Assembly (NCBI RefSeq): GCF_015840335.1
Contig: NZ_CP060395.1
Coordinates: forward strand, 806,001-870,000
DNA length: 64,000 bases
Source: Synechococcus sp. CBW1108
GTDB taxonomy: Bacteria; Cyanobacteriota; Cyanobacteriia; PCC-6307; Cyanobiaceae
Reading direction: 5' to 3'
The translations under genes were made by a program, and so were the position numbers. Below are positions 23,368 through 40,076 of this stretch, piece after piece (within the stretch, counting starts at the first letter, position 1; each line of letters starts with the position of its first letter). The notes beneath the pieces were generated by a model that saw only the letters and a list, made by a program, of their open reading frames with translations, searched no databases and was not told where the DNA came from.

Positions 23368-23730
23368 CTAGCCAACCAAATAATCAGGAATTACGCTAAA
23401 TAAAATCGCCAATGCCAAGGCGGCAAAGCAATTCTCTAGACCCTGCAAGCCGGCGAACAGATTGCTCAAATCATTGCCAGCCGAATTAGTAATCCTGTAG
23501 AGCCTTACACTGCTAAAATACAATGAATAGCAGGAATACATTGCCACCAGGAAAGACGCTACTGCAAACATAATTTCCTGCCAGTTGGCAGAGGAGGCAC
23601 CCTGGAGGGCGCCCCCAGCCTTGATTACAACAAGCAAAGCGATGGCGATGGCAGCAATTCTCTGCTTGGCCACAAGCTGCCTGAACTCAACATCCTGCTT
23701 TGGAGTGAATTCAAATTGGAATTTGGCCAT
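23368..23730 (-). CDS. AT-rich orphan membrane protein
   Basis: A 120-residue protein with three probable membrane segments (about residues 25-45, 53-75 and 98-115) after a charged N-terminus (KFQFEFTPKQDVEF). I do not recognise the family. The base composition is clearly AT-richer than the neighbours, with frequent AAT, ATT and TTA codons, which suggests a foreign or recent origin. ATG 23730 is the most likely start; a TTG at 23757 is possible. Nearby non-coding bases (23280-23367 and 23731-23800) are also AT-rich. It stands alone, convergent with the SemiSWEET gene. Confidence 0.6.
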   Translation of the reverse strand: MAKFQFEFTPKQDVEFRQLVAKQRIAAIAIALLVVIKAGGALQGASSANWQEIMFAVASFLVAMYSCYSLYFSSVRLYRITNSAGNDLSNLFAGLQGLENCFAALALAILFSVIPDYLVG

Positions 23731-23861
23731 TAATTCAGAATTTCCCAGTAGCAGCAAGTCTAGACCAGAGTTGATCAGGCTCTGATTGAAAAAGCGAGAG
23801 CCATTGCCTGATCAAGTGCAAGTCTGCAGGGTTTGAAGGAGTTGACTCACCGGGCCCTACG

Positions 23862-35876: not shown

Positions 35877-36740
35877 GTGGTTAATGCCAGCCTGAATTGG
35901 GCCAGCATCGTGGGCATTGTGCTGGCCGTCGGCGGCGCCCTGCTCTATTTCATGCGGAGCTTCAAGCCCGCCCTGGCCCGCGACTACGACGTTTTCTTTG
36001 CGGCGATTGGCCTGCTCTGCGGCGGCATTTTGTTTTTTCAGGGTTGGCGCCTGGACCCCATCCTCCAGTTTGGCCAGTTCCTGCTGGCCGCCACCACCGT
36101 TTTCTTCGCCTACGAAAGCGTCCGGCTGCGGGGTGTGACCACCGAGCAGGCGCGGCGCTCTTCCTACTTCGACGACGACGAACCGATGCCCACCCCGGGG
36201 CCCGCCCGCGCCCGGGTGGCCGGAAGAACCTGGGGCGAAGCTGATGTGGATCGCTTTGATGAGCCCCAGCCCCTGCGCCGCCGCATTCCTTCCCGCGAAG
36301 ACGAAAGCGAAGACGAAGACTTCTACAGGGCACGCCGGCCCAACCGCACGGCCATCCCCGAGCGGGCAGCGAGCCGCAGGCCGGCCCAGGGCGACTGGGC
36401 AAGCCCAAGCCAGGAGCCTGAGCCCAGCCGTTTCAGCGGCTCAGCACGGTCAGCCGCCAGGCCAGGCGCCGATTTCGGCTCCCGCCGCCGCGAGCGTGAT
36501 GCCACCCCAGAACCGCGCCGGGGCAGCCGACCCACTGCAGCACCTGAGGCCATGCCCCGCTCCACCAGGCGAGCCACCACCCCTGAGGTTGCCCCCCCAA
36601 CCGGGCCAGCCGGAATCCCCCAGGGTTCTCCTATCTCTGGGGCAAGCGAGCAGATCAGCGATGCAGACTTCACTCCGCTGAAACCCCGCGGACCTGGCGC
36701 ACCCCGGCCGCGGGACAACAGCTCCCGCTTCGACGACTGA
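35877..36740 (+). CDS. ycf66: Ycf66 family membrane protein
   Basis: A 287-residue protein. Residues 1-85 are the conserved Ycf66 part with three membrane segments (LNWASIVGIVLAVGGALLYF, then VFFAAIGLLCGGILFF and FGQFLLAATTVFFAYE). The remaining ~200 residues are a charged, disordered Arg/Pro/Ser-rich tail. Found in cyanobacteria and some plastids; function unknown. Starts at GTG 35877. Its stop is directly followed by the next reading frame. Confidence 0.9.
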   Translation: MVNASLNWASIVGIVLAVGGALLYFMRSFKPALARDYDVFFAAIGLLCGGILFFQGWRLDPILQFGQFLLAATTVFFAYESVRLRGVTTEQARRSSYFDDDEPMPTPGPARARVAGRTWGEADVDRFDEPQPLRRRIPSREDESEDEDFYRARRPNRTAIPERAASRRPAQGDWASPSQEPEPSRFSGSARSAARPGADFGSRRRERDATPEPRRGSRPTAAPEAMPRSTRRATTPEVAPPTGPAGIPQGSPISGASEQISDADFTPLKPRGPGAPRPRDNSSRFDD

Positions 36741-36746
36741 GGCGCC

Positions 36747-37319
36747 CTGAACCAACCAAATACGGCGCCAGCCCTGGCAGCCCTGCTGCTGCCAGCCTGC
36801 CTCCTGCTCCTGGCAGGTTGCAGCGGTGGACCCTGGTTCGGCCGCCGCAGTGCCGGCCCCGCCGGCGGCCTCGGTGAAGCCAGCCGCCAGGATCCGGCCC
36901 TAAGCGGCCAGGGGCAGCTGCTGGCCTCCGTGGTGGAGCGCAGCAGTGGGCCCACCCTGCTGCTACAGGAACAACCCAGCGGGAAGGTCCTGAACCTCCG
37001 CCACTTCCAGAGGCACCAGCCCCACAGCTCCCCCTCCCTGAGTTGGAACGGCCGCTACGTGGCTGCCCTGGTGCAGCAGGGCAGCCAGCGGGTGCCCTTG
37101 ATCGAAGATCGGCTCAGCGGGGCCCTGCATAGGCTGCCCCTGCCGGCCGATCACACCGCCCTGCGGCTCAGCCTGGCCCCGGAAGCGGGTCGGCTGGCCG
37201 TGCAGGTGGCCCTCGATGGCCAGGTGCGGGTGCAGTTGTTTGATCTGACTGGCCTGCTGGAGCCCGACCGCCCGGGCGGGATGGCCATCCAGGGGGGCGG
37301 TCCTGGAGCCCCCCCATGA
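36747..37319 (+). CDS. TolB-like lipoprotein, apparent CTG start
   Basis: A 190-residue lipoprotein with beta-propeller-like repeats, of the kind that precedes a TolB-like partner in picocyanobacteria. The frame from 36747 reads as a lipoprotein signal (NQPNTAPALAALLLPACLLL, then LAGC with Cys at residue 25). An in-frame stop at 36738 blocks anything further upstream, and no ATG, GTG or TTG occurs before GTG 36930, which would delete the signal. CTG 36747 has a GAGG four bases upstream, so a CTG start is the simplest reading. The mature part has SLSWNGRYVAALVQQGSQ and SLAPEAGRLAVQVALDGQ, TolB-like blade motifs. Its stop overlaps the next start (ATGA). Confidence 0.75.
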   Translation: MNQPNTAPALAALLLPACLLLLAGCSGGPWFGRRSAGPAGGLGEASRQDPALSGQGQLLASVVERSSGPTLLLQEQPSGKVLNLRHFQRHQPHSSPSLSWNGRYVAALVQQGSQRVPLIEDRLSGALHRLPLPADHTALRLSLAPEAGRLAVQVALDGQVRVQLFDLTGLLEPDRPGGMAIQGGGPGAPP

Positions 37320-37810
37320 GGGTGCCTGTCCTTGCAACGGCCACAGGCACTCTCATGGCCATGGCCCTGCTGCTGGGCAGCTGCATGGGGCCGATGCCGA
37401 GGCCACTGCAACCAGTCAACAGCCGCCTCGAGGCCTTGGGCGCCACCCGGGAGCCTTCTCTCTCGGGTCGCTGGCTGGCCCTGATCAGCGGCCGGGGCGG
37501 GCGGGAGCAGGTGATGCTGCTCGATCTGGAGCGCCAGCAGCCCCAGCCCCTGCTAGGCCTCAACCGGGCCGATGCCCAGCCCTTGAGCGTCAGTATCGAT
37601 GCAGCTGGGGAAAAAATAGCCCTGGTGCGCCAGCTGGAAGGCCGCACCGAGCTGGTGCTCTACCGCCGCTCGCTGCAGAGCCTGCAGCCAATCGCCATGG
37701 TGCCCAACGGTGTGCCCAAAGCAGTGCAACTCCAGGCCGATGGCCGCCAGCTGGCCGTGCAGGTGAGCCGCAATGGGATCTGGCAGGTAGACCTGATCCA
37801 TATCCCCTGA
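37316..37810 (+). CDS. TolB-like lipoprotein
   Basis: A 164-residue lipoprotein, with signal ending LLLGSC (Cys near residue 23). Propeller-like motifs are PSLSGRWLALISGRGGREQV, LSVSIDAAGEKIALVRQ and LQADGRQLAVQVSRNG. It parallels the preceding protein, and the two probably form one unit by translation coupling (overlap of four bases). Function unknown; TolB-like lipoproteins usually act at the outer membrane or in peptidoglycan linkage, which is inference here. Confidence 0.8.
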   Translation: MRVPVLATATGTLMAMALLLGSCMGPMPRPLQPVNSRLEALGATREPSLSGRWLALISGRGGREQVMLLDLERQQPQPLLGLNRADAQPLSVSIDAAGEKIALVRQLEGRTELVLYRRSLQSLQPIAMVPNGVPKAVQLQADGRQLAVQVSRNGIWQVDLIHIP

Positions 37811-37867: not shown

Positions 37868-38092
37868 TCAGGGCACCAGGCCCGCCCAGTGCAGGAAGGT
37901 GTCTCCGCTGATGGCCTCGATCAGCAGCAGGGCCGCAAAACCCACCATGGCAAAACGACCATTGACCCGCTCGGCGTAGCCACTCCAGCCAAAAGCCGGA
38001 ATGTCGCCGGTAGTGGCACTGGTGGTTGCACTGGTGGTTGCACTAGTGGGTGGATTTGTGGCCGGAGTCTCAGCAGGCATGGGATCAGGCAT
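37868..38092 (-). CDS. High-light-inducible (HLIP) protein
   Basis: A 74-residue single-helix light-harvesting-like protein. The chlorophyll-binding signature AERVNGRFAMVGFAALLLIE (ExxNxRxAMxGF) is intact. These proteins bind chlorophyll and carotenoid and protect pigment synthesis and photosystem II assembly in excess light. The N-terminal ~35 residues hold a repeat of Thr-Ser-Ala units. ATG 38092 is chosen; it lies inside the 3' end of the ABC transporter gene (8-base overlap), which suggests the two are cotranscribed. Confidence 0.93.
   Translation of the reverse strand: MPDPMPAETPATNPPTSATTSATTSATTGDIPAFGWSGYAERVNGRFAMVGFAALLLIEAISGDTFLHWAGLVP
38012..38047 (-). repeat. 12-bp tandem repeat in the HLIP N-terminus
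   Basis: Three near-identical 12-base units (38012, 38024 and 38036) encoding a Ser-Ala-Thr-Thr repeat ahead of the membrane helix. Confidence 0.85.
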
Positions 38093-40076
38093 GACGTCCC
38101 ACGTCATAGCCGGCCGCCGGCAACAGTCGCCACTTACCACTGCCGTCGAGCTCCAGCACCGTGTCGTGGAAGGCGGTGAGGGTGGGGCGGTGACCCACGC
38201 TCACAAAGGCCATTTCCCGCTCGCTTAGCAGGGAATAGAGGTGGCGCTCCGTGGCAACATCGAGGGCACTGGTGGCCTCATCGAGCACAACAAAGCTGGG
38301 TGAATTGAGCAGCAGGCGGGCAAAGGCCAAACGCTGCTGCTCGCCCAGGGACAACAGCCGGGGCCAGTCTTGGATGATATTTAGGTCGGGATAACGCTGC
38401 ACCAGCTCGCCCAGGCGCACCTCCTCGAGCACATGGCGCAGCTGGCCATCGCTAAAGCGATCCGGCTGCTGGGGATAGCAGAGCTGCTCCCGCAGGCTGC
38501 CCAGCAGCATGTAGGGCTTCTGGGGGATGAACATCAACTCCCCCTCGCTGGGCCGCTCCACCCGCCCGCATGCCGGCGGCCAAAGGCCGCTCACCATGCG
38601 CAGGAAAGAGGTTTTGCCACAGCCGGAAGGCCCCACCACCAGCAGGCGCTGGCTGCGATTCACCTCGAGGCTCAGATCCCGAATCAGGGTGCGGTTGGTG
38701 CGGGGCGGCACCAGGTCCACATGGCTGACCAGGATCGAGCCGTCGTCACGGCCCCCACTGGTGGCCGCCAGCTGGGCCTCTAGGGCGGCGGCTTCAGTGC
38801 CGATCGCATCAACCTTTCCCTGGAATCCCTCCAAACGGCTAATCGAAGCGGAGAAGGCGGCGAGGCGATCAATGTTGTTAACGATATAACTCACCGAAAA
38901 CAAAACCTGACTGAAGGCAATGCTGGCCTGGGTAAATACACCAAAATCAACCTGCTTAGCGAAGTAGATCGGTGCAATCACCAGCCAGGGCAAAAATCTA
39001 GAGAAATAATCGTAGGAGCGCTGGATCACACTGATCAGGGCTTCCCAGACAATCAAACGGTCGTAGTTTTGAATCGCTCCTCCCAGCCGCCGCTGGGCCT
39101 CGCTGGCTTCCTGCTGCTCTCCGCGGTAGAAGGCGATCGACTCGGCGTTATCGCGGATGTGCACAAGGCCATAACGAAAATCGGCCTCTAGCTTGAGCTG
39201 CAAATAATTTAGATTGACCAGCTTACGGCTTGCAAACACAATCAAACCGGTGCCCCCCACCGAGTACATCAAAAGCACCAAGGCCAGCTGGTCACTGATG
39301 TTCCATAGCACAATGATGAAACTGGCAAATGTGAGCAGGGCTGCGATGATCTCAACAACAACGCTCAAGCTAGTGCCAGTAAAACTGGCCGTATCCTGGG
39401 AAATTCGCTGGTCTGGATTATCAATTTCTTCGATCGACTCATCGTTTGGATTGAGAATATAATAGGCTCGATTAGAGAGGTAGCGATTCAACAAGCGCCC
39501 ACTCAGCCACTCTCGCCATAACAAGCCAAGCTTGGGAATCAGGTAGCTCTGGATCGCCCGGATAGGCAGGGCCAGCACCAGACAAAAAGCATATATGGCT
39601 ACGATTTTCCAAAAATCATCCGCCTTATAGGCCACCAGGGCATTTTCAATATTGCGAGCGATGAAGCTGATTCCCACATTTATCCCATTGATCACCAGGA
39701 TCAGCAGGGTGATCACTCCCATCAGCAGCCAGGGCAGCCAGCGGCCCTGCCTCAATTTGCCGCGAAAGGCCACAAAACAGCCCAGTCCACCGGCCAGCAA
39801 CACCATCACCAGCGGCCCGATCGGGCTACGCCAGATCGCCGCCACCTGCTCCGGCACCCCCGGCAAAAAGCGGCTGCGCAATTCGGGGATCAGGGCCCCA
39901 CTGAGGGCCAGCACCCCAGTCAGCAGTAGCAAGGTGCTGCCCACCACCACCGCCAGCAGCGCGGCCACCAGCAACAGGAACTGCCAGCCCCGGGTGTCGT
40001 CCACCGGCAGGAAGTAGGGCTGGGCGAGACGCTGCAGCTTGCCTAGCTGATCGCGTAGGGCCTTAAAGAAATTCAT
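38085..40076 (-). CDS. ABC transporter, fused permease/ATPase (SbmA/BacA-like)
   Basis: A 663-residue half-transporter with N-terminal membrane domain (about six helices in residues 30-380) of the ABC_membrane_2 type, related to SbmA/BacA, YddA and peroxisomal ABCD proteins, followed by an ATPase domain: GPSGCGKTSFLR (Walker A), FIPQKPYM (Q loop), LSLGEQQRLAFARLLL (signature) and FVVLDEATSALD (Walker B). In bacteria this group handles peptides, very-long-chain acyl groups or vitamin B12. The middle of the gene (about 38880-39660) is somewhat less GC-rich than the rest. It is followed by hli on the same strand with overlap. Confidence 0.87.
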   Translation of the reverse strand: MNFFKALRDQLGKLQRLAQPYFLPVDDTRGWQFLLLVAALLAVVVGSTLLLLTGVLALSGALIPELRSRFLPGVPEQVAAIWRSPIGPLVMVLLAGGLGCFVAFRGKLRQGRWLPWLLMGVITLLILVINGINVGISFIARNIENALVAYKADDFWKIVAIYAFCLVLALPIRAIQSYLIPKLGLLWREWLSGRLLNRYLSNRAYYILNPNDESIEEIDNPDQRISQDTASFTGTSLSVVVEIIAALLTFASFIIVLWNISDQLALVLLMYSVGGTGLIVFASRKLVNLNYLQLKLEADFRYGLVHIRDNAESIAFYRGEQQEASEAQRRLGGAIQNYDRLIVWEALISVIQRSYDYFSRFLPWLVIAPIYFAKQVDFGVFTQASIAFSQVLFSVSYIVNNIDRLAAFSASISRLEGFQGKVDAIGTEAAALEAQLAATSGGRDDGSILVSHVDLVPPRTNRTLIRDLSLEVNRSQRLLVVGPSGCGKTSFLRMVSGLWPPACGRVERPSEGELMFIPQKPYMLLGSLREQLCYPQQPDRFSDGQLRHVLEEVRLGELVQRYPDLNIIQDWPRLLSLGEQQRLAFARLLLNSPSFVVLDEATSALDVATERHLYSLLSEREMAFVSVGHRPTLTAFHDTVLELDGSGKWRLLPAAGYDVGRHA

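Follow-up and report, generated by a model that had tools for sequence, protein, structure and literature searches.

In a 64,000-nucleotide stretch of the Synechococcus sp. CBW1108 genome (here, the window), a ycf66 gene is followed by a reading frame that encodes a predicted lipoprotein, and the question is where the translation of this second gene starts. The genome consists of one contig of 3.2 Mb, and its relatives go by names such as Synechococcus and Cyanobium. As the original prediction stated, the lipoprotein frame contains no ATG, GTG, or TTG from the in-frame stop codon at 36738 to position 36930, where a GTG is the first standard start; a GAGG does lie four bases ahead of a CTG at 36747, and it also overlaps the TGA stop codon. 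A bounded frame with no usable ATG, GTG, or TTG is one mark of a CUG-initiated gene, and two explanations had been proposed for it: either translation truly begins at the CTG, or the assembly has a wrong base in the first codon. The features of the locus are as follows.

35877 to 36740, plus strand: gene of the Ycf66_N family, the upstream partner (open reading frame list; PF07444, E = 3.7e-30; conserved tail)
36738 to 36740, plus strand: TGA, stop codon of ycf66 and at the same time the in-frame upstream limit of the lipoprotein frame (from the sequence)
36739 to 36742, plus strand: GAGG, Shine-Dalgarno-like, 4 nt before the CTG and overlapping the stop codon (identical in the sister genome)
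36747 to 36749, plus strand: CTG at which lipoprotein A is proposed to start (nearest to the stop in the bounded frame; sister genome; family pattern)
36747 to 36818, plus strand: predicted lipoprotein signal peptide, 24 codons, with no Lys or Arg ahead of the hydrophobic part
36810 to 36821, plus strand: lipobox LAGC (CTG GCA GGT TGC), with the Cys codon at 36819 to 36821
36747 to 37319, plus strand: lipoprotein A, 190 amino acids and a stop codon; TolB-like, covering roughly half a propeller
36930 to 36932, plus strand: GTG, first standard in-frame start, the use of which would cost the signal and about 60 residues
37316 to 37810, plus strand: lipoprotein B, the ATG of which overlaps the stop of lipoprotein A as ATGA; internal control

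In the window, ycf66 and the lipoprotein A gene are in the same frame, and the TGA alone stands between them. Ycf66 ends in RDNSSRFDD, with GAC GAC TGA as its last codons, and the stop is followed by GGC GCC CTG (36747) AAC CAA CCA AAT ACG GCG CCA GCC CTG; from the CTG at 36747, the frame translates as LNQPNTAPALAALLLPACLLLLAGC. This CTG begins 6 nt past the TGA, without the start/stop overlap of a -4-nt reinitiation pair, and lies 24 codons from the lipobox Cys. The signal had been called textbook, and it does have a LAGC lipobox after a hydrophobic stretch; however, the segment ahead of that stretch, NQPNTAP, lacks the Lys or Arg of a positively charged n-region, so that the signal is good rather than textbook. 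When the 64-kb window was scanned by hexamer coding score, five open reading frames passed the cutoff for a coding-like stretch upstream of their first standard start, and the lipoprotein A frame scored second among them. The top-scoring candidate, at 23527-23733, was rejected as a second case in the window, being antisense to a longer open reading frame. Near the lipoprotein B gene, a small open reading frame on the minus strand (37868-38140) resembles a high-light-inducible protein, judging by its NGRFAMVGF motif.

The junction also exists in a sister genome, that of Synechococcus sp. CS-1331 (locus L002, which has the same sequence as L162), at 97% protein identity. The two junctions are identical from TTCGACGACTGAGGCGCC through CTGAACCAACC, and TGAGGCGCCCTGAAC is common to both; the ACG at 36762 is CCG in the sister genome, whereas the CTG at 36747 is kept. 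It is true that a single base change turns CTG into any of the standard starts, as an assembly error that hides an ATG, GTG, or TTG would require. Yet the sister genome is a separate assembly, and in the survey described below, 58 of 130 junctions have a CTG and no standard start after the ycf66 stop. We thus regard a base error at the first codon as very unlikely, and the same two observations speak, at the level of sequence comparison, for real CTG initiation.

Matches to lipoprotein A were found in 16 of 16 genomes in a genus search and in 236 of 400 genomes in a family search. Junctions were read at 131 loci (16 from the genus search, 15 from the family search, and 100 fetched), which were mostly better-scoring matches, with some chosen for diversity; some of the listed matches and all weaker, unlisted ones were left out. 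One locus at a contig end (L088) was dropped, and the ycf66 stop was placed in the remaining 130 junctions, by sequence pattern in the four cases (L008, L021, L068, and L113) where the ycf66 start was missing or mis-hit. A standard start was scored as missing if there was no in-frame ATG, GTG, or TTG from the ycf66 stop to 13 residues before the lipobox Cys. Because the genomes are related, the junction counts are not independent. Internal TGA codons suspected in L129, L130, and L131 proved to be the genes' own stops. Two contigs titled as Verrucomicrobiales and Bifidobacterium breve metagenome-assembled genomes (L163 and L186) carry a cyanobacterial lipoprotein A gene and are probably mislabeled bins.

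A standard start is missing in half of the picocyanobacterial junctions (65 of 130). Relative to the ycf66 stop, the lipoprotein A gene lies in phase 2 at 64 loci, in phase 1 at 47, and in phase 0 at 19, a relation that differs even inside one genus, and the junctions without a standard start are distributed over the three phases as 34/64, 28/47, and 3/19. An in-frame CTG is present in 58 of these 65, in 12 genera as read off the family match table, among the matches listed; in 17 of the 130, no ATG, GTG, or TTG whatever occurs between the ycf66 stop and the Cys. The other 65 junctions (30 of the 64 phase 2 loci among them) have a standard start, some of these starts being unconvincing as starts of a signal. 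In phase 2, the codon that shares bases with the ycf66 stop is CTG (as CTGA) at 61 of 64 loci, or 61 of all 130 junctions. Prochlorococcus sp. MIT 0701 (L093, the same as L233) is one genome that combines this layout with the lack of a standard start. From this codon to the Cys, the distance is 16 to 61 codons; the lower limit at 16 is sharp, and most values lie between 16 and 28, as is expected for the length of a lipoprotein signal. In at least two cases among the 61 (L113 and L116), an in-frame stop comes after the CTG, which therefore cannot be the start there. In phase 0, the loci L001, L002, and L078 lack a standard start and have a frame that is bounded by an in-frame stop close to the CTG; at L116, too, a TAA immediately precedes a CTG.

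The position of the CTG shifts between lineages across the 130 junctions. At four loci of one genus (L033, L037, L038, and L047), CCG occupies the position of the relatives' CTG, and a CTG follows four codons later in three of them; at other loci (for example, L102, L119, L121, and L124), Lys comes straight after the CTG. AT-rich loci (GC content below 0.5) have a TTG 15 to 23 codons before the Cys in seven of seven cases. Seven phase 1 junctions (L023, L035, L060, L087, L103, L106, and L129) lack both a CTG and a standard start downstream of the stop. In six of the seven, a standard codon occurs in frame inside ycf66, 27 to 59 codons before the Cys; that of L106 is a TTG 8 nt ahead of the ycf66 stop and is plausibly an ordinary start. 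Among all 65 junctions without a standard start, 15 have an in-frame ATG, GTG, or TTG inside ycf66 within 60 codons of the Cys (at 27 to 59 codons) and 50 have none; at those of the 15 that were looked at, L106 apart, such a start would take its n-region from the Ycf66 linker. The near-cognate codon at the stop in phase 1 is ACG, in the overlap ACGACTGA. The distance from this ACG to the Cys also has a floor of 16, which is suggestive only, because the two GAC codons force the ACG.

The lipoprotein B gene serves as a control within the same operon. We kept 80 named genomes of 159 relatives for this comparison, 76 of which are also among the 131 loci, so that the two sets are not independent. 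In these 80 genomes, a standard start is missing in gene A in 46 cases and in gene B in none; when the minimum length was varied from 9 to 17 residues, gene A lacked a start in 23 to 54 cases and gene B in 0 to 5. The missing starts of gene A are thus not created by the method. Read in the frame of gene B, the overlap with the stop of gene A is ATGA in 58 genomes, GTGA in 12, TTGA in 3, and CTGA in 2, with another frame in 5; both CTGA cases have a standard start elsewhere. These counts indicate that a start in this operon usually shares bases with the TGA. Outside the family, 20 related loci, which need not all follow ycf66, were examined, and all 16 in which a lipobox was located (the pattern was not found in four) have a standard start, often GTG. 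As judged from this comparison, the CTG start is probably a derived state of the picocyanobacterial family.

An in-frame Cys lies near the expected place at 131 of 131 loci and a strict lipobox ([LVI][ASTVI][GAS]C) at 85 of them, and homologs that start far downstream and lack a signal, which would have argued against the original prediction, were not seen among the loci read. Some relatives (L095, L102, and L121) have KR after the start. In 22 pairs, the signal segment from the CTG onward has a pN/pS of 0.69 in frame versus 1.12 and 1.28 in the shifted frames, a test that is weak with respect to the start because much of the segment is the hydrophobic part, which is coding under any start; with a pN/pS of 0.10 in the body, the signal segment evolves fast by comparison. 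The body is TolB-like, as had been claimed: the family profile matches solved TolB chains, with a best E value of 1.1e-11, and matches to PD40 and to Gmad1 were each obtained in 10 of 24 family members. Searches of lipoprotein A against NCBIfam gave no match at E values up to 1, and those against Pfam gave matches below the cutoffs, without reaching that of the curated TolB family. Unlike the TolB beta-propeller, lipoprotein A comprises approximately half a propeller, has a predicted lipid anchor, and belongs to a tandem pair beside ycf66; it need not be part of a Tol-Pal system. The lipoprotein A and B genes (36747-37810) form a tandem of TolB-like halves downstream of ycf66, and many cyanobacteria of other families have two matches to the lipoprotein A profile. 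Lipoproteins A and B might together form one propeller.

The tie to ycf66 and the spread of the trait through the family are points that the original prediction had missed, and the end of ycf66 is itself under constraint. The last residues of Ycf66 (36711-36740 in the window; DN.SRFDD in the family) are nearly invariant, while the preceding linker is variable. The last Asp codon is GAC in 112 of 116 cases versus 67.5 expected from local usage (51 of 54 versus 28.0 in phase 2), and the penultimate Asp codon is GAC in 122 versus 74.2 expected; synonymous constraint also extends to Asn and Ser codons farther from the stop. With gene A downstream, ycf66 ends in CTGA in 122 of 130 cases, versus 1 of 18 in genomes without a match to gene A, several of which are incomplete (53% and up) and for which the profile search had no positive control (in another search, this profile found its gene in 76 of 194 genomes, and three of the 18 are listed there as lacking a match). 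Seventeen of these 18 loci keep the DN...RFD tail, and the lone CTGA is in the one with an unrelated tail. At a GC content of 0.5 or more, CTGA occurs in 119 of 123 loci with gene A and in 1 of 7 without it (Fisher test, 2e-7, uncorrected for kinship), the seven all being of one genus; below 0.5, the numbers are 3 of 7 and 0 of 11.

CTGA is kept equally well in the two phases in which it does not share the frame of gene A (45 of 47 and 16 of 19 loci), so that the role as a start codon is not enough to account for the constraint. Within the last 9 nt plus the stop, 21 of 130 loci with gene A have a strong start triplet in some frame, versus 17 of 18 loci without it. Possibly, then, the tail is constrained so that no frame offers a strong start near the stop; this avoidance is partial, and it does not explain all of the tail constraint.

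Taken as sequence evidence, these observations make it likely that lipoprotein A starts at the CTG at 36747 by coupled reinitiation after ycf66, at an inherently weak start that is kept by selection. Ribosomes finishing ycf66 at the TGA (36738-36740) would be placed next to the CUG, which is 6 nt farther on in the window and overlaps the ycf66 stop as C-UGA in the commonest layout among relatives. Reinitiation there with the initiator tRNA, presumably with the CUG decoded as Met in vivo, would couple the translation of lipoprotein A to that of Ycf66, and a weak CUG kept by selection would leave lipoprotein A at a low level compared with Ycf66. Since, in phase 2, CTG is kept even though a change to TTG would cost only one synonymous change in ycf66, the weak start may itself be selected. 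A CUG start is quoted in PMC11497404 as giving 0.86% of AUG output and as making up 0.024% of bacterial initiation codons. The CUG of Caulobacter dnaA gives a toeprint in vitro and is, according to PMC8443254, unused in vivo, which calls for caution about CTG initiation in lipoprotein A. A wider and distinctly more tentative version, which we consider rather doubtful, is that of a family-wide weak-start device, in which the GAC GAC TGA end of ycf66 would be held synonymously so that few strong starts occur at the stop, and gene A would be reinitiated at near-cognate codons (CUG in one frame and, in a -8 overlap, ACG in another), fixing a low ratio of lipoprotein A to Ycf66.

ORF callers limited to ATG, GTG, and TTG would pick the GTG at 36930, the first standard start in frame, and translation from there would make the signal a relic. 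Such a start is very unlikely: it would lose the lipobox, in spite of the Cys present at all 131 loci read and the strict box at 85 of them, along with conserved columns of the body (e.g., alignment positions P26, S29, and G32), and both in gene B and at the outgroup loci the signal is preceded by a standard start. The shared frame in the window, with nothing but a TGA in between, and the strong constraint on the last ycf66 codons and stop in all three phases would also suit a single Ycf66-lipoprotein A protein, made by stop readthrough or by frameshifting at the end of ycf66. We rejected this fusion as highly improbable, because the frame relation varies between relatives, even within one genus, so that no single recoding event fits the three phases; moreover, the lipobox would become internal.

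A closer competitor retains reinitiation and changes the codon: another near-cognate or a later CTG (36774) would be used, or the codon would be loosely chosen. The seven junctions that lack both a CTG and a standard start beyond the stop would agree with this, as would the ACG in the phase 1 overlap and the several CTGs inside the hydrophobic part of the window signal. However, the ACG at 36762 is not conserved in the sister genome, where the CTG at 36747 is, and a start at 36774 would leave almost nothing ahead of the hydrophobic part, for which reasons we hold such an alternative codon to be unlikely and CUG reinitiation at 36747 to be the better reading.

If CUG reinitiation is indeed the route, lipoprotein A would resemble known gene pairs in part. 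Pairs with a short overlap of -4 nt (ATGA, GTGA, or TTGA) are translated by termination-reinitiation, according to PMC10666635. Gene B looks like an ordinary example of these; gene A has the same position in the operon, and in the commonest layout of its relatives the start shares bases with the TGA, but its putative start is CTG instead of ATG, GTG, or TTG, and there is no overlap in the window. CUG-initiated bacterial genes are rare, with 20 open reading frames in 69 genomes reported in PMC9845219. Lipoprotein A would likewise have a near-cognate CUG start, whereas here one orthologous junction in the 12 genera is concerned, tied to an upstream stop. In the open-license literature that we searched, no report of CTG starts in these genes was found.

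If our reading is true, many picocyanobacteria would begin one and the same orthologous gene with a near-cognate codon thought to be almost unused in bacteria. Gene finders restricted to ATG, GTG, and TTG would then truncate or miss lipoprotein A and lose its membrane anchor. With gene B as a matched control in the same operon, the locus would also offer a natural system for asking whether ribosomes that reinitiate can begin at codons on which free ribosomes do not.
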